A stretch of 31,759 bases of DNA, from positions 2,982-34,740 of the forward strand of contig NWUY0300009927.1 in assembly GCA_004151065.3 (NCBI GenBank). Reading direction: 5' to 3'. The notes below the pieces were generated by a model. The model was not told the origin of the DNA. It saw only the letters and a program-made list of their open reading frames with translations, and did not search any database. Positions 4,861 to 29,984 of the stretch are shown here, piece after piece. Each line of letters opens with the position of its first letter. Positions within the stretch are counted from its first letter, which is position 1. The position numbers were made by a program, and so were the translations under genes. Source of the stretch: Larix sibirica. Taxonomy: Eukaryota > Streptophyta > Pinopsida > Pinales > Pinaceae.

Positions 4861-5215
4861 GTATTTTTCACTGAGCCCGAGTTGGTCAAGTAGAACCTAT
4901 ACCCAGGTGTGCTTTTGCACTTTCGTCTGAGACCTCAGCAATCGAAACTCTTCGGAGAACATGAGCGTCTCTTCCATTGTTAACATAGGAAACAACATAT
5001 CATCATGCATAACATAAGTCGAAATGTTCCTTAGCACCCGCCCTCCCAATGTCTCTCCATTCAGCATCACGCTGCCCTTCAAGCTCTCTTTCGAAATCTT
5101 GTGCACGAGGGAGTCGATCAATGTCAATTTCTTGGACCTGCTATGGCCGAACACAACGGAAAGATCCCATCTTTAGCTTCTCCAGAATTATTATTTAAAA
5201 CAACTAAATTCTCCA
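4861..5215 (-). pseudogene. ABCG (WBC-type) half-transporter ATP-binding domain, pseudogene fragment
   Basis: Read on the minus strand, this matches the start of the nucleotide-binding domain of plant ABCG half-transporters, which export lipids, hormones or cutin/suberin precursors across the plasma membrane. In order: a GEAKDG segment (about 5167-5184), a one-base frameshift, a decayed Walker A (FGHSRSKKLTLIDSL where the family has a G-rich GKST loop), KESLKGSVMLNGETLGGRVL, the YVMHDDMLFPMLTMEETLMF block with the Q-loop region (Q replaced by H), EFRLLRS, an in-frame TAG, then LLDQLGLSE at about 4864-4890. Signature motif, Walker B and membrane domain are absent. The GTG at 5154 is not a real start. 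Loss of Walker A, a frameshift and a stop make it a dead fragment. No intron-free transcript hallmarks such as poly(A) are seen, so I cannot tell a gene relic from a retrocopy. Confidence 0.85.
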
Positions 5216-11418: not shown

Positions 11419-12368
11419 ATATAAACACAACTTTCATTTTTTTTTAAAATCACGAACATCATCGTTAAAAAAAACATTATTATTAACCAAATCAAATATA
11501 GGGAAAGTTCCATGGAAGGATTAATATGAGCATCATCACTCAAAGAATCATGAACAATATCAGTATGGACTACATCATGGGCTTGAACATCAACATGAGA
11601 ATATTCATCATGTGAAGCAACAATATATCTTGAATATGTGAATTCTAAGAAGTGATATTACAAGGATCATCAATTCTTTGAACTAAACATGAAGAATCAA
11701 CCAATTTTATCAAATCACATGGATCACAACAACAATCAACCAATTCTATTATCATAAATACAAAGGACCAATATAGGGTTATCCTTTAATTTCTTATTTT
11801 CTTCCTTAAGCATACCAAATGCATTGCATATGATCATCATAACTTATGGAAACTTGAAAACGCACTCATCAATATTTGTGTTTTTTATAAGCTTATTTAC
11901 ATTATAAAAAAAATAAAAATAAAAATTGAGAGTTCTTCATCCTCATTACCATATTTAACATGAAAACCTTGAATTGGTCACTTATTAGTCCCTGCCCCTT
12001 TGGAAGCAGAGACTATAGGAATTGATTTCTTACAAATCTATTACCCTGGCACAATTTCCAAAGCTTTTTAACCTTTTTTTTCAAAAAGCATGTTCTGGCC
12101 AATAACATTATTTGGAGCCTTATTTGGCCTCAAATCGAGGCTTGATAGATTAAAGGCCTCATATCGAGGCAACCATATTGGGACTATGCACATGGAGGCA
12201 TGATGGAAATGGCTTTGCTTCTATGTCTTGCTTACTTCAGACCATGCATACGAATTATTAATGGGCTTAACACCTGTCGGCTATGGTAACTTTGTGTGTG
12301 CATGGATTACAAGTTTTCGCTAGTGTGTCTCTCTGATGGCTTCATATTTATTCACCTTGCGTTCCCAG
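11419..12368. other. Intergenic or intronic DNA with one dispersed repeat
   Basis: There is no gene. 11424-11980 is AT-rich with ATCA-rich stretches. A dispersed repeat copy occupies 11982-12141. The last 30 bases form a pyrimidine-rich splice-acceptor region (CACCTTGCGTTCCCAG, ending at 12368) for the 4CL pseudo-exon, so the right part may be a relic of its intron. Confidence 0.45.
11982..12141 (+). repeat. Dispersed repeat, copy 1
   Basis: Shares TTATTAGTCCCT(G/A)CCC at the start, (A/G)GACTATAG(A/G)AAT, TTTTAACC, TCT(G/C)GCCAAT, and GCCTTATTTGGCCTCAAATC at the end with 23880-24042. The order and orientation are the same. The family is not recognised; it could be a SINE or MITE-like sequence. 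Confidence 0.6.
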
Positions 12369-12720
12369 GATGTGGTGCTCAGCATCCTCCCGATGTTTCA
12401 CATCTACTCACTCAATTCTGTGTTGATTTGCTCGCTCAGGGATGGCTCTGCAATTCTGCTCATGCAGAAGTTCGAGATCGTGAGTCTTTTGGATCTGGTC
12501 CAGAGGTTCAAGGTCACAGTGGAGGTCATCGTGCCTCCAATTGTTCTTGCCATTGCCAAGAATGCATTGGTGGAAATTGTTCTTGCCATTTTCAAGAATG
12601 CCTTGGTGGAAAGCTACGATCTGTCATCCATTAGGATTGTGTTGTTCGGAGTTACGCTTCTTGGAAAGGAGCTCAAGGATGCATTGAAGTGACAAGTTCC
12701 CAAATCCATTTTTGGCTAAA
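12369..12720 (+). pseudogene. 4CL: 4-coumarate:CoA ligase exon 2, isolated pseudogene exon
   Basis: 4CL activates hydroxycinnamates to CoA thioesters in the cytosol for lignin and flavonoid synthesis. The translation matches the family closely: [76 protein letters not shown]. It starts exactly after TTCCCAG (12362-12368), where an exon 2 of 4CL would begin, and stops at AAAG|GTCAGT near 12720, a plausible donor. This is therefore genomic DNA rather than a processed copy. Defects are an in-frame TGA at 12690-12692 (likely from CGA), a TAA near the donor, substitutions in the conserved SGAAPLG region (FGVTLLG), and a 36-bp tandem duplication. The AMP-binding box I and the GEICIRG motif belong to other exons and are not in the window. 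ATG 12336 lies before the acceptor and is not a start. Confidence 0.85.
12540..12611 (+). repeat. 36-bp in-frame tandem duplication in the 4CL pseudo-exon
   Basis: 12540-12575 and 12576-12611 encode [12 protein letters not shown] and [12 protein letters not shown]. Three base differences separate the copies. The duplication keeps frame. Confidence 0.95.
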
Positions 12721-13404: not shown

Positions 13405-13421
13405 AACGTCTTGAATGTGCC
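13405..13421 (+). repeat. LINE target-site duplication, left
   Basis: AACGTCTTGAATGTGCC is identical to 20100-20116. Its 17-bp length and perfect match fit target-primed reverse transcription. Confidence 0.92.
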
Positions 13422-13564
13422 ATTAACTTTGAATTACATTGAGGTAAAAAATATCCAAGAAAACTGGGAAGCTTAGACTTTCTTGGGCATGACAAGGGCT
13501 GTGCACACTGATATATGCCACAGGCTTCAAGGATCTTGGGATCTTCAAAGCTCTGCTCACTCTA

Positions 13565-14036
13565 ATGGCCCCGCAAGGGGGGCGGAAAAAAACCTCCAAG
13601 CCTCAAGGAATTGGGCCAGTGCCATCTACCACATCTATGGCTCTTTCCAAACAGGATAAAGGCAAGGGCTCATCCGATTCTGAAAGATCCAATAGCAAAA
13701 ACCAGGGGACTCAATCTATCTAGCCTGCAAGCATTGAAACAACGAAAATTCCAGTGCCGCATGGAGGAGGCAAATGTATACCAAAAGCGGTTCTCATCCC
13801 ACGGTATGCTATAACTTCTCCCCAAGTCTCTAAAAACATTCAGTTTATGCATGATCATGCTATTACATGCAAATTTATGGGTCTTTGGCCATCTGAGCGA
13901 GCACTTATGGGTTGGATCAAAGGGTTGGCATACAAACAAATAACGTCTGGATGAGCTAGGTAATCTTATGAGGGATTCAGGACATTATAATCAGCTTATA
14001 GAGTTCTTCTCTTCCTTATCTTCTGTTCAGAAATGA
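13565..14036 (+). pseudogene. LINE ORF1 remnant (nucleic-acid-binding protein), centre deleted
   Basis: ATG 13565 opens a basic, Lys/Gly/Ser-rich N-terminus (MAPQGGRKKTSKPQGIGP). A TAG follows at codon 53, then the frame continues to KNIQFMHDHAITCKFMGLWP and SERALMGWIKG before TGA near 13953. The CKFMGLWPSERAL block resembles the start of the gag-like DUF4283 region of plant LINE ORF1. In another frame, 13944-14036 is open and gives RLDELGNLMRDSGHYNQLIE and FFSSLSSVQK, then TGA. This looks like the natural C-terminus, because its stop overlaps the ORF2 start (ATGA at 14033-14036). Most of the middle of ORF1, including any zinc knuckle, is therefore missing, probably by one internal deletion near 13930-13944. 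Confidence 0.65.
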
Positions 14037-14760
14037 AGCTCATTACCTGGAATATCAGAGGTATCAATGGCTCCTCTAAGCATCGTCTCCTTAAAAATAA
14101 GATTTTAATGGAAAAACCTACTATTCTTATTTTTTCAAGAAACCAAGTGCTCTACTACTACTATGGAAATTATTGCTCAAAAAATATGGAAATCTTCATC
14201 CGTTGTTGATGTGGATGCTTTGGGAGGCTCCGGTGGACTTGCAATTCTTTATAACCCTAATGAGATTTGTCTTAACAGCTTTGAAGCAACTTTGAGAGCT
14301 CTTACAATTTCTTATCATCTCTTAGGTACCAACAAACGAGGTTTCATACCAATATTTATGGACTTCAAACCCTTCAGCCCAAGTTGGAAATCCTTAAGCA
14401 TCTCCATTGGATAAGGGACTCTCATCCAGATCAAAATTGGATTGTGGGAGGTGATTTTAACATGATTACTAATCTTGAGGAAAAAAAAGGAGGTATTAGA
14501 AAGTTAGACAAAGATAGTACTGCCTTTAGTTCATTGATGGAGGGGACGGGTATGATATACATACCCACAACTAATGGTCTATATACCTGGAACAACAAAC
14601 GAGGCAGCCATTTTCAAATAGCTTCTCGTCTCAACAGATTTCTTATTTCGAGTCACCTTTATCCACAAGATGATGGGTGGATGGCTACCATTCTACCGGC
14701 TAATGGTTCTGATAATTGGTCGGTCTGTCTTCAAAGTTCTGATTACAAAGGTGGTCCCAA
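14033..14760 (+). pseudogene. LINE endonuclease domain (APE-like), catalytic His lost
   Basis: Motifs in order: TWNIRG (metal-binding Asn), QETK (catalytic Glu, after a frameshift), GGSGGLAILYNP, NIYGLQT (replaces VYGP), GGDFNMI (Asp 14453-14455), YTWNNKRG, SRLNRFLIS, and SDNWSV. Two key positions are changed. SRLDRFL has Asn for Asp (14633-14635), and the SDHW motif has Asn for the catalytic His (14714-14716). This nuclease nicks target DNA to start reverse transcription, and the changes alone would inactivate it. Confidence 0.85.
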
Positions 14761-15369
14761 CAGACCCTTTCGTTTCAAGAAATTTTGGCTTACCAACCCG
14801 GACTTCAAAGAAAATATTGGAAAGTGGTGGAAGGACTCTTCTATTACTACAGGGTCTTTAATGTACAAGTTCCAGCAAAAGCTCAAAAATATGAAACAAA
14901 AAATTAAAAGTTGGAATAAAACTACTTTCGGTAACATCTTTGAGGAAAAGCATCACATTGAAGAAAACATTAAATTGCTACAGCAGGATATTATCCTTTC
15001 TGGTTACTCTGATGCCAAACAAAGGGAGGAATCTATCCTTAACCTTCAGCTCAATGACAGACTTAATCAAGAGGAGATTCTTTGGAGGAAGAAGTCTCGT
15101 ATCAAATGGCTCAAGGAAGGTGAAAGGAACACTAAATTCTTCCATAATTCTATGCTTCAGTGACGACAACATAACAAAATCACCATGTTGAAGACTAGCA
15201 ATATGTTCCCATTTATGAACAGCAGGAGCTAGAAAAGGATTTCAATACCTACTTCTCAGATCTCTTCTTTGAACCCTTTATTGACAGAAGTCAGGCTATC
15301 AGTGATATTACCAGAAGCATTCCTGTCTGCTCAAACACGATCAGAATGTGCGACTGATGCGGCCAATTA

Positions 15370-16560
15370 GCATGCAGGAAGTTGAAACAACTGTCTTGGG
15401 AATGAAAAAAGGAAAGTCCCCAGGGCCGGATGGTTTTACTACAGAATTCTTCCATGAATGATGGGACGTAATTAAAGAGGAGGTTTTGGAAATAGTGGAA
15501 GATTCTAGGCATACTCAAGGTATTCTTTCTGCCTTCAACGCTGCCTTTCTCACCCTCATCCCCAAAGGTACTAATACTACCAATCCTTTAAACTTTAGTC
15601 TTATTTCTCTTTGCAACGTTATTTACAAAATTATTACTGAAGTCCTTGCTAATCGTCCGAAACCTCTTCTCCCCCTCCTCATTTCACCAGAGCAATCTAG
15701 CTACGTGGAAGGTAGACAAATTCTAGATGGTATTATTCTAGCTCAGGAGGTTATCCATTCTCTCAAAACTACTAAAAAATCGGGAATGCTTATCAAGCTC
15801 GATATGTCCAAAGCCTTTGACAGATTGAACTGGTACTATATTGCTAACGTCCTTAAGGCCTTTGGATTATGTCAACAACTCATCGATTGGATCATTTCTC
15901 TTCTTTCTTCGGCCTTCTATTCGATTTTGGTCAATGGGAAACCCTCGGAACCTTTCTCTCCTTCTCGGGGTATTAGAAAAGGTGATCCCCTTTCACCCTT
16001 CCTTTATATCATTATCGATGAAGGCTTAGGAAGAGCCATCAAAGCTAGTCTTATTTCCAACAACCTAAAGGGCCTCAATCTCCACCTCGCTGCCCCTACA
16101 TGTTCTCATCAACAATTTGTTGACGATACTCTACTTATGGGTTGTCCCTCCTGCAATGAAGCCAAACGTTTTAGAACTATCCTGAGAACCTTTGAAAGAG
16201 CCTCTGGTGCCTGTATCAATCTTGAAAAATCCCATATTTTCTTCTTCAACACCAATCTACTTATCCAAGTCATAATTTCTTTTTGTCTTGGGCTCTCAAT
16301 CCATACTCTCCCTTCTAAGTATCTGGGTTCCCCACTCATGGACAAACCACTTAGACAAGCTAATTGGGAAGACCTTCTCACCAGTCTCAGTAATTGTTTA
16401 GCAAGTTGGACCTTCAGATCTCTTAACCTGGTGAGCTGTCTTACCCTGGTCTAGTTTGTCCTTCAATCAATTCCTCTGTACTTGTTCTTTGTTCTGGAAG
16501 CCCCTAAAAGTATCATTAAACGCATTCGAAACCTCCAAAGAAATTTTCTTTGGGGTAGTA
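15370..16560 (+). pseudogene. LINE reverse transcriptase domain
   Basis: RT motifs are well kept: MKKGKSPGPDGFTTEFF, FLTLIPKG, SLISLCNVIYKIITEVLANR, SPEQSSYVEGRQI, LIKLDMSKAFDRLNW (catalytic Asp at 15801-15803), RGIRKGDPLSPFLYI, QQFVDDTLLMG (FVDD at 16116-16127, both catalytic Asp present), GLSIHTLPSKYLGSPL and the thumb. The uninterrupted stretch 15486-16454 is 322 codons. ATG 15486 is internal and not a real start. TGA 15459 and TAG 16452 break the frame, and reading resumes after each in the same frame. Confidence 0.93.
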
Positions 16561-17057
16561 ATCGGAAACAAATGAAGTGGGATCTTGTCAAATGGGAGGA
16601 GGTTTGTCAACCTAAGCTCAAAGGCGATCTTGGTCTCTGAGACCCGGACACTCTTAATCAAGTCCCGGGTGCTAAAATTTGGTGGAATTGGCTTACTCAC
16701 AACAAGGAACCTTGGTCTCTTCTTTGGCATGCCAAATATTCCCCCTCTTGGCATCCTCGGGATCTTATTCGCTTCAACATCGAGATAAAAGGATCTACAG
16801 TTTGGAATCTGGCTTGGACTAATCGGTCTCTTATCCAACAGCATAGCTCCTCGGATATTAAAAATGGTAATCATGCACTCTTTTGGGAGGACTCTTGGCA
16901 ACAGGCAGGTAAACTTCATGACATTTCTCCTAATCTAGAGCTCCAAAATAATCTTGAACAGAGGGGTATGTATCATGTCTGCCATTATTGGAAGGAACAG
17001 GAAGGAAATACACACTGGTGCATTTGGCAACACCCTCTCAGCTAGCCTAGCCCTCCT

Positions 17058-17489
17058 ATGAGAGATATTGCTAAACTTTTACATGATAGTTTAAGTAGTA
17101 GAAAAATAAAATTCAGCCTTGATAATTATAAGTTGCGCTGGAGACATACCCCAACTGGGCATTTTTCAGTTAAAGAAGGGTACCATATTCACGCCAATTT
17201 TCAGCTTCTCCCGGACAAACCTATCTGGAAGGCGGTTTGGAAAGATAAACTGTGGCCAAAGATAGCTACCTTCCTCTGGCTTCTGCTCAAAAGGAAAACT
17301 CTTACTTGGGATAATCTGCTTAAAAAAGGGTCTACTGGTCCCTCTTTCTATCACCTCTGTCAGCAAGAGGAAGAGACAATTGAGCACCTCTTTAATACTT
17401 GTGTCTTTACTAACAGTATGTGGGATCAGGGGACTGTGCTCTTTCAGATTTCTAAGAGTGACAGAGGCAGCATTTACACTACCTACTAG
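17058..17489 (+). pseudogene. LINE zinc-binding region downstream of RT (zf-RVT type)
   Basis: The frame contains WRHTPTGHFSVKEGYHI, WKAVWKDKLWPKIATFLWLL, KRKTLTWDNLLKKG, and then HLCQQEEETIEHLFNTC. This is the arrangement of the zf-RVT region found after RT in plant LINE-like proteins. It has Cys, His and Cys in the last block, and the first Cys of the usual C-x-x-C is replaced by His or Tyr. It is preceded by TAG 17043 and followed by a TAG at 17487-17489, and probably helps bind the element RNA or target DNA. Confidence 0.8.
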
Positions 17490-17698
17490 ATCGAATCTAG
17501 AACCTCTTCCCTAGCTTCCTGATTTGGGAGATCTGGAAAGAAAGGAATAGGTGAGTCTTCAAAGCCACTACTTTGAGGACGGAGGATATCTGGTATCGCA
17601 TAAAAATGATTATCACTAAAACGGTTAATATCCATCATTGGTCGGAGCGGGATATGCATCCTAAAGAGCCAAAAAGTCATATACTGCAAACCTAGGTC

Positions 17699-18190
17699 TT
17701 GGTCATCTCTAACCCTACTCGGCCAGCTCTCCCCAACAACAATTTGCAAAGTCCTAATACTTGGCTTCCTCCCGCAAACAATTTCATTAAGCTTAACTTT
17801 GACGAGGCTTCAAAGGGAAACCCGGGGCATTCGGGCTATGGTGGTCTTCTCAGAAACAGCAGGGGCAATGTTGCAGGTATGTATGCAGGTTACATTGGCA
17901 TAACTAGTAACAACGCAACTGAACTGGATGCTCTTATTCATGGTTTGAAAATGGCGGTGACCCACAATATTCAAAGGCTTATGGTGGAAGGGGACTTGCC
18001 GATTTTAATCAACATATTGAAGAAAATTATTCATAGTACTAATACCCGCAAGTTAGGAAACTGTTGGAGACTAAAGGATAATCTAAAACTCTTGGCCACG
18101 TTGGTGGGCAACTTTGCCACGTTGATACCTCTCCATGTGCGCAGGAGTGTCAACAAGGCTGCTGACAATCTTGCCAATCTGGGTACCTAG
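17699..18190 (+). pseudogene. LINE RNase H domain, catalytic residues intact
   Basis: The frame encodes FIKLNFDEASKGNPGHSGYG, GLLRNSRGN, NATELDALIHGL, MVEGDLPILI and LHVRRSVNKAADNLANLG. The four acidic positions are all present: Asp 17801-17803, Glu 17921-17923, Asp 17993-17995 and Asp 18164-18166. The usual KLNFDGA has Glu for Gly after the first Asp. RNase H removes the RNA strand of the RNA-DNA hybrid. ATG 17699 is internal. The domain is open across its full length and is the best-preserved part of ORF2 together with RT. Confidence 0.9.
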
Positions 18191-18385
18191 CTAGGGGAAG
18201 AAATCATTAATGTATATGTAAGGTATCAAAGAACTGACATTTGTCTTAACACATGTCATCGACTCATGGCAGATGATCAGCTTCATTTTGACATGCTCCA
18301 AGCGGCTCGACAAATGGAGGCAGAGGATGGTAATTATACTACTCATCAAGGAGCTGGTATGGTTTTGGTCTCTCCAAAAACCGTT

Positions 18386-18724
18386 TAGAGTCTCTTCACG
18401 GTTTCTGTCCTTTAGACTAAGCCCCAGACTCATGTGAACTGTACCATTTGAGCTTGGGATTTGGGCTGAGACTTCATTGCTCAGTACTCGGCTACATGAA
18501 GCAATTATATGAATGTGGATGGATTTGAAAAATTCTCTCTGATCTCCATGCATTATTACTTCATTATCCAATATAGCAGCATGATGTTGGCATATCTCAG
18601 ATTTATTATGATTGATTACCATATTTATTCAGTGCAGCAGGTTTCCTTCACCACCAATTGTGAGGTGTGCAACCATTTTGATTCCTCTCTGTCTATCTTT
18701 AGTTTCTTTGGCTGCTACTTAGAA
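18386..18724 (+). other. Spacer between LINE ORF2 and ORF3
   Basis: The spacer holds several stops in every frame. The frame from ATG 18509 is continuous with ORF3, but its first 72 codons are F/I/Y/S-rich and look like read-through of a T-rich leader (TCTGTCTATCTTTAGTTTCTTT just before 18725). Confidence 0.4.
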
Positions 18725-19655
18725 ATGGTGCGTCCCCGAAAATGTTTGGCTACAGGTCAGATGCATCAGACACCTACTATGAACCAGCTTAAAGTTGTGG
18801 ATGCAGCTAGAGCCTATGCTTTCATCATTCCGTTAGACATTCGTCATTTTATTGAAAGCTCGGAGGAAGCTCTTTGGTGCATGTATACGAACCCTAAAAC
18901 CAAGCTCCCCGCTGTCAAGCTTAATTTCTGGGAACTGGACCCGGGTTCTACAAGAGGCCGATTGGATCTTTTTGAACGAACTCTGGTCACATTCTGGACA
19001 AATAAAATCATGTTGGGGCAAACTCTTATGGCCAAGGATCCGAACAAGTTGTCGTTTCTCCATGTTAACAGGATGCTCCATGATCTCAAGCATGCAGTTC
19101 TGATTCTGGATGGTAACCTTTCCAAATTAGCGGGCAGAGTTGGTATTCAATTCATCCAACGTTCTGACTTGGGAAATTCCTCGCTCTAGCATGGTCCGTC
19201 TGATGATCGGTACGACCATTCCATTGTTGGTAAGGGCAAGCTTAAGCTTTCTGAGCCCACTCCTACGTATCCTCAGGATGGTCTCCACCTGACCGATAGG
19301 CAGTATGAAGTCCCCTTCAATCCTCTGGCTCCGTGGATTCAAAATCCTGGCAATATCAAAAATATGGTGGAGCATTATGAGATCTCCATAGCTCTGCACT
19401 CCATTATGTGTGGTCTTATGAATACTATGCTCTTGGATAACAAAGACTGTCTCCAAGGACTGTGATGCTCTGGGTACATAAATACAGCGGCTCTCTCAAA
19501 TTATGGGGATCAAAATCAGTACCATGGTTGACCATCTGGCGAGCAAGGACTACAAGAGCACTCAGACTCCGGAAGCTCCATCTCCTTGTGTCTCGGCTAC
19601 GGCTGGCAATACTCCCGACATGTTGATCCTCATCAATGATGATGTTCCTATCTAA
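18725..19655 (+). pseudogene. Extra coding region of the LINE ('ORF3'), family unknown
   Basis: Starting at ATG 18725 (context GAAATGG), one frame gives MVRPRKCLATGQMHQTPTMN, then VDAARAYAFIIPLDIRHFIE, KLNFWELDPG, TLVTFWTNKIMLGQTLMA, NRMLHDLKHAVLILDGNLSK, LAGRVGIQFIQRS, a TAG at 19187-19189, and a further 91 open codons (HGPSDDRYDHSIVGKGKLKL onward) to TGA 19463-19465. A shift at about 19450 continues in another frame (SKDCDALGT, TAA 19479, IQRLSQIMGIKIS) to a Pro/Ser/Thr-rich end, NTPDMLILINDDVPI, and TAA 19655. That is about 310 residues with two stops and one shift, much like ORF2's decay. The sequence is protein-like and not repetitive. It is not a part of EN, RT or RNase H that I can recognise. 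It could be a captured host segment or a gag-like protein. The opposite-strand frames here are shadows. Confidence 0.5.
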
Positions 19656-20099
19656 GCAGACTGTTCAGGTTTTTTGGGTCCCTTGACGGGTCTTTCTTTT
19701 TTCTACTGTTCTCTTTCTCGTATGATCTACTATCAATATTGTACTTTCTTTTTTGGTCAAGTACTTGGGTTTACTCGCTCTTGGATCAGGCCCAGGGTCC
19801 AGGGTTGGCTGTGTGTTCAGTCCCAGTTTTGTAATTTCTATTATTGTCAAACCTCTAGGTTTACTCGCTTTTGGATCAGTCACAAGGTCCATGGTTTGCT
19901 CTGTCTGCAATCTAAGGTTTACTCGCTTTTGGATCAGTCACAAGGTCCATGGTTTGCTCGGTCTGCAGTCTAAGGATAGGTCCAGAAGATTTCTGGTGTC
20001 TTTGTGTCATGTACAGACCCAGAATTACTGTGCTCTCTATGTAATATTTTCTCTGACAAAAGTTTAATAACAAGGCTCTATTTTTTTTTCTTAAAAAAA
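19656..20099 (+). other. LINE 3' UTR and poly(A) tail
   Basis: This region contains the 58-bp repeats, then GACAAAAGTTTAATAACAAGG, CTCTA, a T run, CTT and a run of 9-10 A ending at the right target duplication. The frames on both strands here arise from the repeat. Confidence 0.8.
19767..19972 (+). repeat. 58-bp repeat in the LINE 3' UTR
   Basis: Two close copies, 19857-19914 and 19915-19972, start AGGTTTACTCGCTTTTGGAT and contain CAAGGTCCATGGTTTGCTC. A diverged copy starts at 19767 (GGGTTTACTCGCTCTTGGAT) and is separated from copy 2 by about 40 bp. Confidence 0.9.
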
Positions 20100-20116
20100 A
20101 ACGTCTTGAATGTGCC
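20100..20116 (+). repeat. LINE target-site duplication, right
   Basis: AACGTCTTGAATGTGCC is identical to 13405-13421, immediately after the LINE poly(A). Confidence 0.92.
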
Positions 20117-28230: not shown

Positions 28231-28268
28231 TGGAGCCAAGACCGAGTTGATTTTGATCTAGACAAAAA

Positions 28269-28570
28269 TTGAAATCAATTGAGGAGTTGAAGCATTGCCT
28301 ATACTTGATGCTAATCCCCATCCTACCAAATCTTCAAAGACAATATAAAACTGAGACAAAAACCTCAAATTATATTGTTGGTGTAATCCTTTCTCAATGT
28401 GGACATTTGATGACCTATCACATCGAGACACTTTCTACTGCAATTCATAGATACCCCACCTATAACAAAGAGCTTTGCTCCATTTCTCAAGCCTATTGGA
28501 AATAGAAGCATTGTATTATGGGAAATAAAATGGTCATCCAAACTAACCATAGGCTTTTGCAATTTATGCA
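28269..28570 (+). pseudogene. Gypsy RNase H region
   Basis: The frame holds IEELKHCLYLMLIPILPN, TETKTSNYIVGVILSQCGHL, TYHIETLSTAIHRYPTYNKE, LCSISQAYWK-stop-KHCIMG, then VIQTNHRLLQF. The TDAS motif is TETK, NH replaces the DH of the H/TDH motif, and the YNKEL Glu is present. Confidence 0.82.
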
Positions 28571-28599
28571 CACTTAGGGTGAGTTATAGAGTGACATCA

Positions 28600-29049
28600 T
28601 AAGTCACGTGGTCCAAGTACATTCAACAATGCCACTTAAACATTAAGTGCAAGAAGGGAAACACCAATAGAGCTGTAGATTGCCTTAAGCAACCTTTGGT
28701 TGTGGCATTAACCGAAGTCCTTAATTCCCATGGACAGAAAACAATGGCTACAATTGTATGGCAATGATATGGAATTTGCTACTACATATTAGATACTTGT
28801 CACATCATGTAAACAAGTTTAAGGATTTCACCTCCATGATGGACATTTCGGCCATCTAGTCCATTTTTGTGTTACTTTAGGTGAGCATGAGAAGACGATT
28901 TATGAGGTGTACTCCAATTGGTTGACATGGAGAAGACAGTAGCAATGCTATAAGAGTACTTATAATTTCCAAACCTCTAACAACACGTCAACATATACCA
29001 GATCATGCATTGCTTGTGTAATTGTTAAATTGCAATCTAAGAGTAAGCA
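28600..29049 (+). pseudogene. Gypsy RNase H-integrase linker
   Basis: SKYIQQCHLNIKCKKGNTNR, AVDCLKQPLVVALTEVLNSH around 28610-28740 is the well-kept linker of plant gypsy pol (KKG-x-TN-x-x-DCLSR). The H2C2 zinc-finger region expected at 28850-29040 is too broken to read. Confidence 0.7.
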
Positions 29050-29540
29050 TTGTGCACTCCTCTAACCATTCCAAATAAGACTTGGGAGTCAAGTTCCATG
29101 TATTTTATGTTAGGTCTAGCCTCAACCAAGCATTGCAATGATTGTGTTTTTGTAGTTGTTTATCAGTTCTTTACGATAGAAATTTTGGCGTCTTGTAAGA
29201 AGAATGTCATAATTATTCCACTAGTAAACTCTTCTAAGAGTATGTTTGGGTTGCTTTTTGGGTTTCCAAATACCATTGTCTCTAATAGGGATAACATATT
29301 CATTTCTTAAAATTGGTTGATCCTTTGGTAATGATGGAGACTAAGCTAACCAAATTGAATACCTTCCATCCACAATCAGATGGACAGTGGGAGGAAATCA
29401 ACATGATTATTACATATATCCTTAGAATGTCGAACTCCAAGCATCCATGTACATTGAATGAAAACCTTCCTTATGTTCAACACAGATACACCATCACTCT
29501 TAATAGTTTTATCAACAACAACCAATTTTAGTTAGGTTTC
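29050..29540 (+). pseudogene. Gypsy integrase core, two of three catalytic acids lost
   Basis: The frame reads NKTWESSSMYFMLGLASTKH, NDCVFVVVYQFFTIEILASC, FGLLFGFPNTIVSNRDNIFI; then, in the next frame, TKLTKLNTFHPQSDGQWEEI and ILRMSNSKHPCTLNENLPYV. The first catalytic Asp is Tyr (29101-29103), the second is Asn (29284-29286, VSNRD for VSDRD), and the Glu of DGQ-x-E is kept (29391-29393). ATG 29050 is internal. Integrase joins element DNA to the host chromosome, and this copy cannot. Confidence 0.88.
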
Positions 29541-29712
29541 CAACCATTGGTCCCAACTAGTACAACTCTATCCATTGTGATCCTCCCATGCTCAAAACAA
29601 GGCAAACAAAGACACCAAATATGTCAAACAAACCCACACTTTGACCAACAAGTTCATTGTATTTAATATAAATCCAATGCCAAGTACAAGTAACAACACG
29701 ATCATCATCATG

Positions 29713-29984
29713 TTTTGCACAAGTTTCAAGTTGGTGACAAGGTATGGTTGCACGTGTATAAAGAATGCCCCATAAGACCCCACATAAAGTTCAATCCTCT
29801 TCGACGTGGCCCTTATATAATCTCCAAGGATATGGGTGACGATAATTTTAAATTTAATCTCCCACCTTTACTCAGATTACACCACGTCCTTAATGTGGAG
29901 TTTCTTCAACCATACTTTCCACCTATTTTGGACACCTTAGAGGTGGAAAATCACTTAGTCACTATAGAGTTCAACCCTTACTAA
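29713..29984 (+). pseudogene. Gypsy integrase C-terminal region
   Basis: An 89-codon open frame: LHKFQVGDKVWLHVYKECPI, KFNPLRRGPYIISKDMGDDN, FKFNLPPLLRLHHVLNVEFL, QPYFPPILDTLEV. The GDKVWLH, RRGPY, LPP...H-x-V-x-NV-x-x-L-x-PY pattern is the non-catalytic DNA-binding C-terminus of gypsy integrases. It is the longest undamaged piece of this element. Confidence 0.88.

Follow-up and report, generated by a model that had tools for sequence, protein, structure and literature searches.

The LINE in the window

The window (the whole stretch of 31,759 nucleotides of DNA that was analysed) carries on its plus strand an L1-type LINE of 6.7 kb, the parts of which are listed in Table 1. The element is bounded by a target-site duplication (TSD), an exact 17-bp repeat (AACGTCTTGAATGTGCC); the flanks share no longer exact match, and 500 shuffles yielded 11 bases at most. 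A run of A, read in the sequence just before position 20100, forms the A-rich 3' end. Short direct repeats occur within the 3' untranslated region (19760-19990), with copies up to 96.7% alike, the figure found for the self-match of 19857-19917 with 19915-19975.

ORF2 is broken. Its pieces were matched by Pfam to a reverse transcriptase (RT; PF00078, E 1.3e-28) and to zf-RVT (PF13966, E 1.7e-19), and an RNase H-like domain (RVT_3, PF13456, E 1.3e-15) was found at the ORF2 end. The endonuclease (EN) scored weakly in Pfam (PF14529, E 0.051); its start was placed by eye, and the endonuclease piece is similar in loci L039 and L042. The terminal TAG of ORF2 (18386-18388) falls at the equivalent place of the alignment in four close copies.

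A third coding region, ORF3, lies within the TSD and 3' of RNase H. Its frame runs from the ATG at 18725 through a TAG at 19187-19189 to a TGA at 19463, passes into another frame after a break, and ends with TAA at 19653-19655. The first-pass annotation, made from the letters of the sequence, had counted two stops and one frameshift; the frame break and one clear in-frame stop, the TAG, were confirmed, but the second stop, TGA 19463, comes directly after the break. Its central claim, a third coding region 3' of RNase H in an L1-type LINE and inside the TSD, was borne out by the 17-bp TSD, the Pfam domains and the constrained frame (described below), and the analysis also supports its view that ORF3 was already in the element at insertion. 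The LINE lineage in this plant genome consists of ORF1 (apparently DUF4283-like, gag-like), ORF2 (a probable EN, then RT-zf-RVT-RNase H) and ORF3, and ORF3 is almost certainly a real third gene of the lineage.

Table 1. Parts of the LINE, with positions in the window and the basis of each assignment
Feature	Position	Strand	Basis
Left TSD, 17 bp	13405..13421	.	Exact repeat of 20100-20116
Remnant of ORF1 that keeps the N-terminal part and the last residues but, relative to copy L039, not the middle	13564..14000	+	Reading; tblastn match in L039, E 2e-7
ORF2: reverse transcriptase and zf-RVT, preceded by a probable endonuclease; frame broken by stops and frameshifts	14033..17690	+	PF00078, PF13966; endonuclease by eye and by similarity to L039/L042
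ORF2 end: RNase H domain and tail; earlier TAG at 18188-18190	17696..18388	+	PF13456; alignment; dN/dS 0.21-0.26 against three copies
ORF2-ORF3 spacer, probably mainly non-coding	18389..18724	+	dN/dS 0.69-1.17 in five deeper groups
Third coding region (ORF3), interrupted by a single in-frame TAG (19187-19189) and, in its 3' part, by a single frame break; ends with TAA (19653-19655)	18725..19655	+	Frame reading; relatives; alignment A1
Basic N-terminus of ORF3 (M-V-R-P-R-K-C); ATG in strong start context (gaaATGG)	18725..18745	+	Alignment A1; start-context count
Conserved ORF3 core	18773..19159	+	Approximately columns 17-145 of alignment A1
Second conserved block of type-1 ORF3 (V-P-F-N-P-L-A-P-W-I-Q-N-P-G...)	19310..19462	+	Alignment A1; absent from type-2 proteins read
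C-terminal tail, SUMO-interacting-motif-like (M-L-I-L-I-N-D-D here), in the frame after the break	19620..19655	+	Relatives mostly P-I-x-I-x-D-D
3' untranslated region: short direct repeats, A-rich end	19656..20099	+	Self-matches; dN/dS 0.59-0.97 over all frames
Right TSD, 17 bp	20100..20116	.	Exact repeat of 13405-13421

Copies of ORF3 in the genome

Copies were sought in the window's own genome (618 Mb, 19862 contigs). The DNA of the ORF3 region had 7 matches, the window included. The window ORF3 protein had at least 151, again including the window (150 of 874 candidates were scored), with identities of 23 to 83% when the window is left aside, and a second query, a divergent relative from contig C1051, had at least 150 (150 of 1050 candidates scored). 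The segment is thus present in other copies of the family in the same genome, as DNA and as protein. No total copy number is given because the two lists overlap and include contigs of the same sequence. Two open frames of 2604 and 886 residues that seemed to hold ORF3 relatives were discarded, being in fact runs of N.

The group of the window was designated type 1 and that of C1051 type 2. Type-2 ORF3 is shorter (195 residues) and does not have the second conserved block of type 1; across the lineage the protein measures about 195 to 320 residues, and some copies have no stop in ORF3.

RNase H was found directly upstream of ORF3 in 42 of 46 distinct loci, all of which were picked by ORF3 similarity, so that the count tells where ORF3 lives and not what share of LINEs have it. 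The loci comprise 28 of type 1 (L008-L037 minus L013 and L028, repeats of L012 and L019), 26 of them with RNase H upstream; 16 of type 2 or more divergent (L043-L062 minus four repeats), all with RNase H; and two further divergent loci, L040 and L041. Among the type-1 exceptions, L019 has the tail of RNase H only and L035 has none, and both fit 5' truncation. The region upstream of L040 is cut by an assembly gap. L041 (G000:C5853:29000-34000) holds a divergent ORF3-like stretch at 2348-2614 with RNase H matches absent from the 2.3 kb upstream, and is a truncated LINE or another kind of element.

Two or three same-strand ORF3 matches, separated by only about 1.4 to 5.5 kb and hence closer than the length of the 6.7-kb element, were seen in 13 contigs (C10514, C3093, C9695, C7497, C2302, C4652, C797, C6675, C9869, C6994, C5377, C1386 and C1831). 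At L032, ORF3 is followed by the zf-RVT of the next unit. The closely spaced matches look like head-to-tail arrays of LINE 3' halves, with tandem duplication or nested insertion into A-rich tails as possible origins.

Selection on ORF3

Values of dN/dS were obtained as Nei-Gojobori counts on decayed copies, and are to be read as simple counts rather than as a codon model on internal branches. When the window was compared with each of four close copies, the part of ORF3 before the frame break gave 0.18, 0.19, 0.18 and 0.17, against 0.82-1.65 for the other two frames of the same stretch in the window subfamily. RNase H gave 0.24, 0.26 and 0.21 in this subfamily, and 0.73 in the fourth copy, which has no well-aligned RNase H. 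After the break, ORF3 in its own frame gave 0.24, 0.23 and 0.39 on 43-46 codons, with one pair saturated, and the 3' untranslated region of the subfamily gave 0.59-0.97 over all frames.

Across five deeper groups of type 1, ORF3 had in-frame values of 0.29, 0.35, 0.29, 0.36 and 0.72, and out-of-frame values of 0.67-1.14. The weakly constrained group (0.72 in frame versus 0.76 and 0.97) is made up of three copies that share one contig, and its value may mainly reflect changes acquired after insertion. For type 2 the median was 0.19 (range 0.10-0.38, 48 unsaturated pairs), compared with 1.13 and 1.55 out of frame and 0.25 for RNase H. The ORF3 frame is therefore constrained in the copies, with dN/dS below 1, and is under purifying selection of a strength similar to that on RNase H. 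Neither of the outcomes that the first-pass annotation had named as refuting it, absence of the segment from other copies or an unconstrained frame, was observed.

The spacer and the start of ORF3

The spacer (18389-18724) is open in some copies. It shows a mild third-position excess in the frame of ORF3 within the window subfamily (dN/dS 0.39-0.53), and a signal of this kind is not seen in the five deeper groups (0.69-1.17). Stops are rarer in the frame of ORF3 (67 of 2200 codons, 3.0%) than in the other two (125 and 141 of 2178, 5.7 and 6.5%), in a count from which five of 27 loci were left out. On the values from the five deeper groups, a longer ORF3 starting within the spacer was set aside and the start was kept at 18725, in both cases without certainty.

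The context of the ATG was counted separately for the two types. In type 1, a purine at -3 together with G at +4 occurs in 22 of 24 loci, the other 4 of the 28 having no ATG at the place, against a background of 547 of 3520 (15.5%). In type 2, the purine at -3 is found in 13 of 13 and G at +4 in 0 of 13, with no ATG in 3 of the 16 loci.

Relation of ORF3 to ORF1

The reduced ORF1 of the window copy looks, from its sequence, like the product of internal loss. A separate ORF1 is present in the related copy L039, where only its end lies inside the fetched DNA; it has a partial match to DUF4283 (E 2.3e-4, 21.3 bits, below the Pfam cut-off of 27.2) and, by eye, a zinc-knuckle-like stretch. Profile comparison of ORF3 with this ORF1 (hhalign) gave nothing (probability 0.2%), and none of the 18 ORF3 members searched had a Pfam match at E 0.1. 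The suggestion in the first-pass annotation of a gag-like protein shifted to the 3' side, that is, of ORF3 as a displaced ORF1, was rejected on these results, L039 having an ORF1 of its own that is apparently DUF4283-like in part.

Descent of ORF3 with ORF2

Pairwise protein distances of ORF3 and RNase H were strongly correlated (30 copies, 435 pairs; Mantel r 0.885), a value reached by 0 of 2000 permutations; the correlation between RNase H and the adjoining zf-RVT was 0.769 (343 pairs). Trees of the two regions from 42 copies had 20 of 39 splits in common, compared with a mean of 0.1 and a maximum of 2 for shuffled labels. Of the well-supported splits, 17 of 25 in the ORF3 tree recur in the tree of RNase H; conversely, 13 of 21 from the latter recur in the ORF3 tree, and the type-2 clade was present in both (support 0.999 and 0.989). 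Fifteen pairs of well-supported splits conflict between the trees, which could be due to recombination or to tree error. ORF3 is old and has been co-inherited with ORF2.

Searches for homologues

The ORF3 pieces 18725-19186 and 19190-19462 matched no Pfam family at E 1 or better. Type-1 ORF3 had no relative in PHROGs, in the PDB (best profile E 0.96) or in viral contigs, and among 5.8 billion proteins none was found with the window ORF3 (E 10) or with alignment A1 (E 1). For type 2, the Pfam matches to P2 (E 0.025) and Fip1 (E 0.29) were both under their cut-offs, the best E value in the PDB was 0.59, and no relative was found in viral contigs.

As a control, the RT was searched against the same set of 5.8 billion proteins, and 1570 relatives were found at E 1e-20 or better, including plant-like LINE reverse transcriptases. 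The best 120 of the 1570 were mostly metagenome proteins and entries tagged PITA_, a tag that we take to denote Pinus taeda, with 45-61% identity; plant proteins are therefore included in the set, and ORF3 may be missing there simply for want of annotation. These nearest relatives make a gymnosperm a plausible host of the element. A structure model made from the single ORF3 sequence had a helical core at a mean pLDDT of 31, a confidence too low to carry weight.

Ends of ORF3 and its possible role

The two ends of ORF3 recall motifs of nuclear proteins. An AT-hook, which we take to be a G-R-P core with basic flanks, is brought to mind by the N-terminus: G-R-P between basic residues occurs in 7 of 13 type-2 rows, and type 1 is only loosely AT-hook-like. 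The C-terminus is mostly P-I-x-I-x-D-D in type 1 and P-V-V-x-I-x-D and similar in type 2, and resembles a SUMO-interacting motif, taken as a hydrophobic core followed by acidic residues. By a fixed pattern applied to any of three frames, 30 of the 44 loci have such a tail (type 1, 20 of 28; type 2 and divergent, 10 of 16) and the other 14 do not. As controls, the pattern turned up in 1 of 44 loci when the reverse strand was read and in 2 of 44 when an equally long upstream stretch was taken. Among 20 in-frame proteins, 13 tails matched the motif (0.56 expected from shuffles). Pair identity in A1 columns 319, 320, 322 and 325 was 0.88, 1.0, 0.88 and 0.88, compared with 0.10-0.60 in columns 309-318.

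To judge from these motifs, the ends of ORF3 look suited to the nucleus. Our first choice, which we hold tentatively, is that ORF3 is a nuclear adaptor binding chromatin and SUMOylated proteins. ORF3 would be translated from its own well-placed ATG and would act in the nucleus as a non-enzymatic adaptor through which the LINE particle gains access to chromatin or makes use of it. In this model the N-terminus, basic or AT-hook-like, would contact DNA; ORF1p, ORF2p or a host protein would be the partner held by the core; and the SUMO carried by chromatin proteins would be the target of the hydrophobic-acidic tail. It is a more speculative, and rather unlikely, extension that a major seed-plant L1 lineage was ancestrally tricistronic, with a third protein that serves as a chromatin-and-SUMO adaptor and steers insertion or shields from silencing; if true, this LINE would be the first to encode, 3' of its RNase H, a protein dedicated to nuclear targeting.

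Alternative explanations

Other roles for the protein were weighed against that of a nuclear adaptor. ORF3 might be an anti-silencing factor that binds the DNA of the element or silencing proteins and so lifts host repression, as VANC proteins are reported to do for the VANDAL transposons of Arabidopsis (PMC10398659, PMC5735166). An accessory gene of a plant transposon with a possible DNA-binding N-terminus and a SUMO-like tail would suit this role, but an arms-race protein might be expected to evolve fast and ORF3 is strongly constrained, and we think such a role unlikely. About as unlikely is that ORF3 serves in the LINE particle beside ORF1, as another structural protein or nucleic-acid chaperone; the helices of the low-confidence model, the basic N-terminus and the co-inheritance with ORF2 are consistent with this, whereas the protein has no similarity to the ORF1 of L039 and no Pfam family above cut-off. 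Less probable again is a role in suppressing RNA silencing or some other defence in the cytoplasm. Weak suppression of RNA silencing in a plant test is reported for helicases encoded in insect transposons (PMC6338049), but Pfam indicates no helicase likeness in ORF3, and its motifs look nuclear.

As to origin, ORF3 as a piece of host gene captured by one element, a private insertion, is very improbable and was rejected: there are at least 151 and at least 150 matches in the two overlapping lists, the deep subfamilies track RNase H, and the loci without RNase H upstream amount to L019 (tail only), L035 and L041, together with the gap-cut L040. The captured host gene segment put forward by the first-pass annotation fares differently according to its age. 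A recent capture is unlikely because the subfamilies of ORF3 diverged deeply and in step with RNase H; an ancient one is possible, the missing homologues leaving room for a host origin in the distant past. A chance open frame can be dismissed almost entirely. Beyond the missing database homologues nothing speaks for it, and it is refuted by the in-frame values of 0.17-0.19 versus 0.82-1.65, and by the type-2 median of 0.19 versus 1.13 and 1.55. Among the three options originally proposed for ORF3, the one that survives is a lineage-specific accessory protein.

Comparison with known elements

Plant L1 LINEs are usually described as having two ORFs. If well over a hundred copies carry a conserved third gene, the annotation of these elements would have to change, and one would have to ask by what route a third cistron comes to be translated; ORF3 would also offer a protein with which to approach two open matters, the choice of insertion sites by plant LINEs and their way of coping with silencing. 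No report of a plant LINE with a separate ORF3 after RNase H was found in the open-access literature searched, and in PMC5741268 the term SUMO is confined to the reference list.

Celine of poplar is described as a plant L1 with a DUF4283-bearing ORF1, an ORF2 with EN and RT, and a 189-bp 3' untranslated region (PMC11288735). The present element resembles it in an ORF2 with RT, a TSD and an A-rich tail, and probably also in the EN and in an ORF1 of DUF4283 type. Celine is described with two ORFs; the present element has, 3' of ORF2 and ahead of the 3' untranslated region, a further stretch of about 1.3 kb that holds the constrained ORF3. An archaeal-like RNase H is reported for some plant L1 LINEs (Smyshlyaev et al., 2013, cited in PMC5718144), at the end of ORF2, as here. 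The LTR retrotransposons of bdelloid rotifers likewise bear an additional ORF besides gag and pol, with ORF3s of env-like, GDSL esterase and DEDDy exonuclease types (PMC5408684). Those are LTR elements, with some ORF3 types common to Penelope-like elements, and the LINE ORF3 matches none of the types by Pfam. Insect LINEs with an extra helicase domain likewise have an added module on the 3' side, but there the helicase is part of ORF2, and ORF3 here is a separate ORF (PMC4686597, PMC6338049). VANC is likewise an accessory gene of plant transposons, albeit of another transposon class.

Other features of the window

Three further groups of fragments were recognised by eye. On the plus strand, 12324-12692 resembles a 4-coumarate:CoA ligase pseudogene and 28257-29984 holds fragments resembling the end of a Ty3/gypsy pol; on the minus strand, 4897-5172 resembles part of an ABCG-type transporter.
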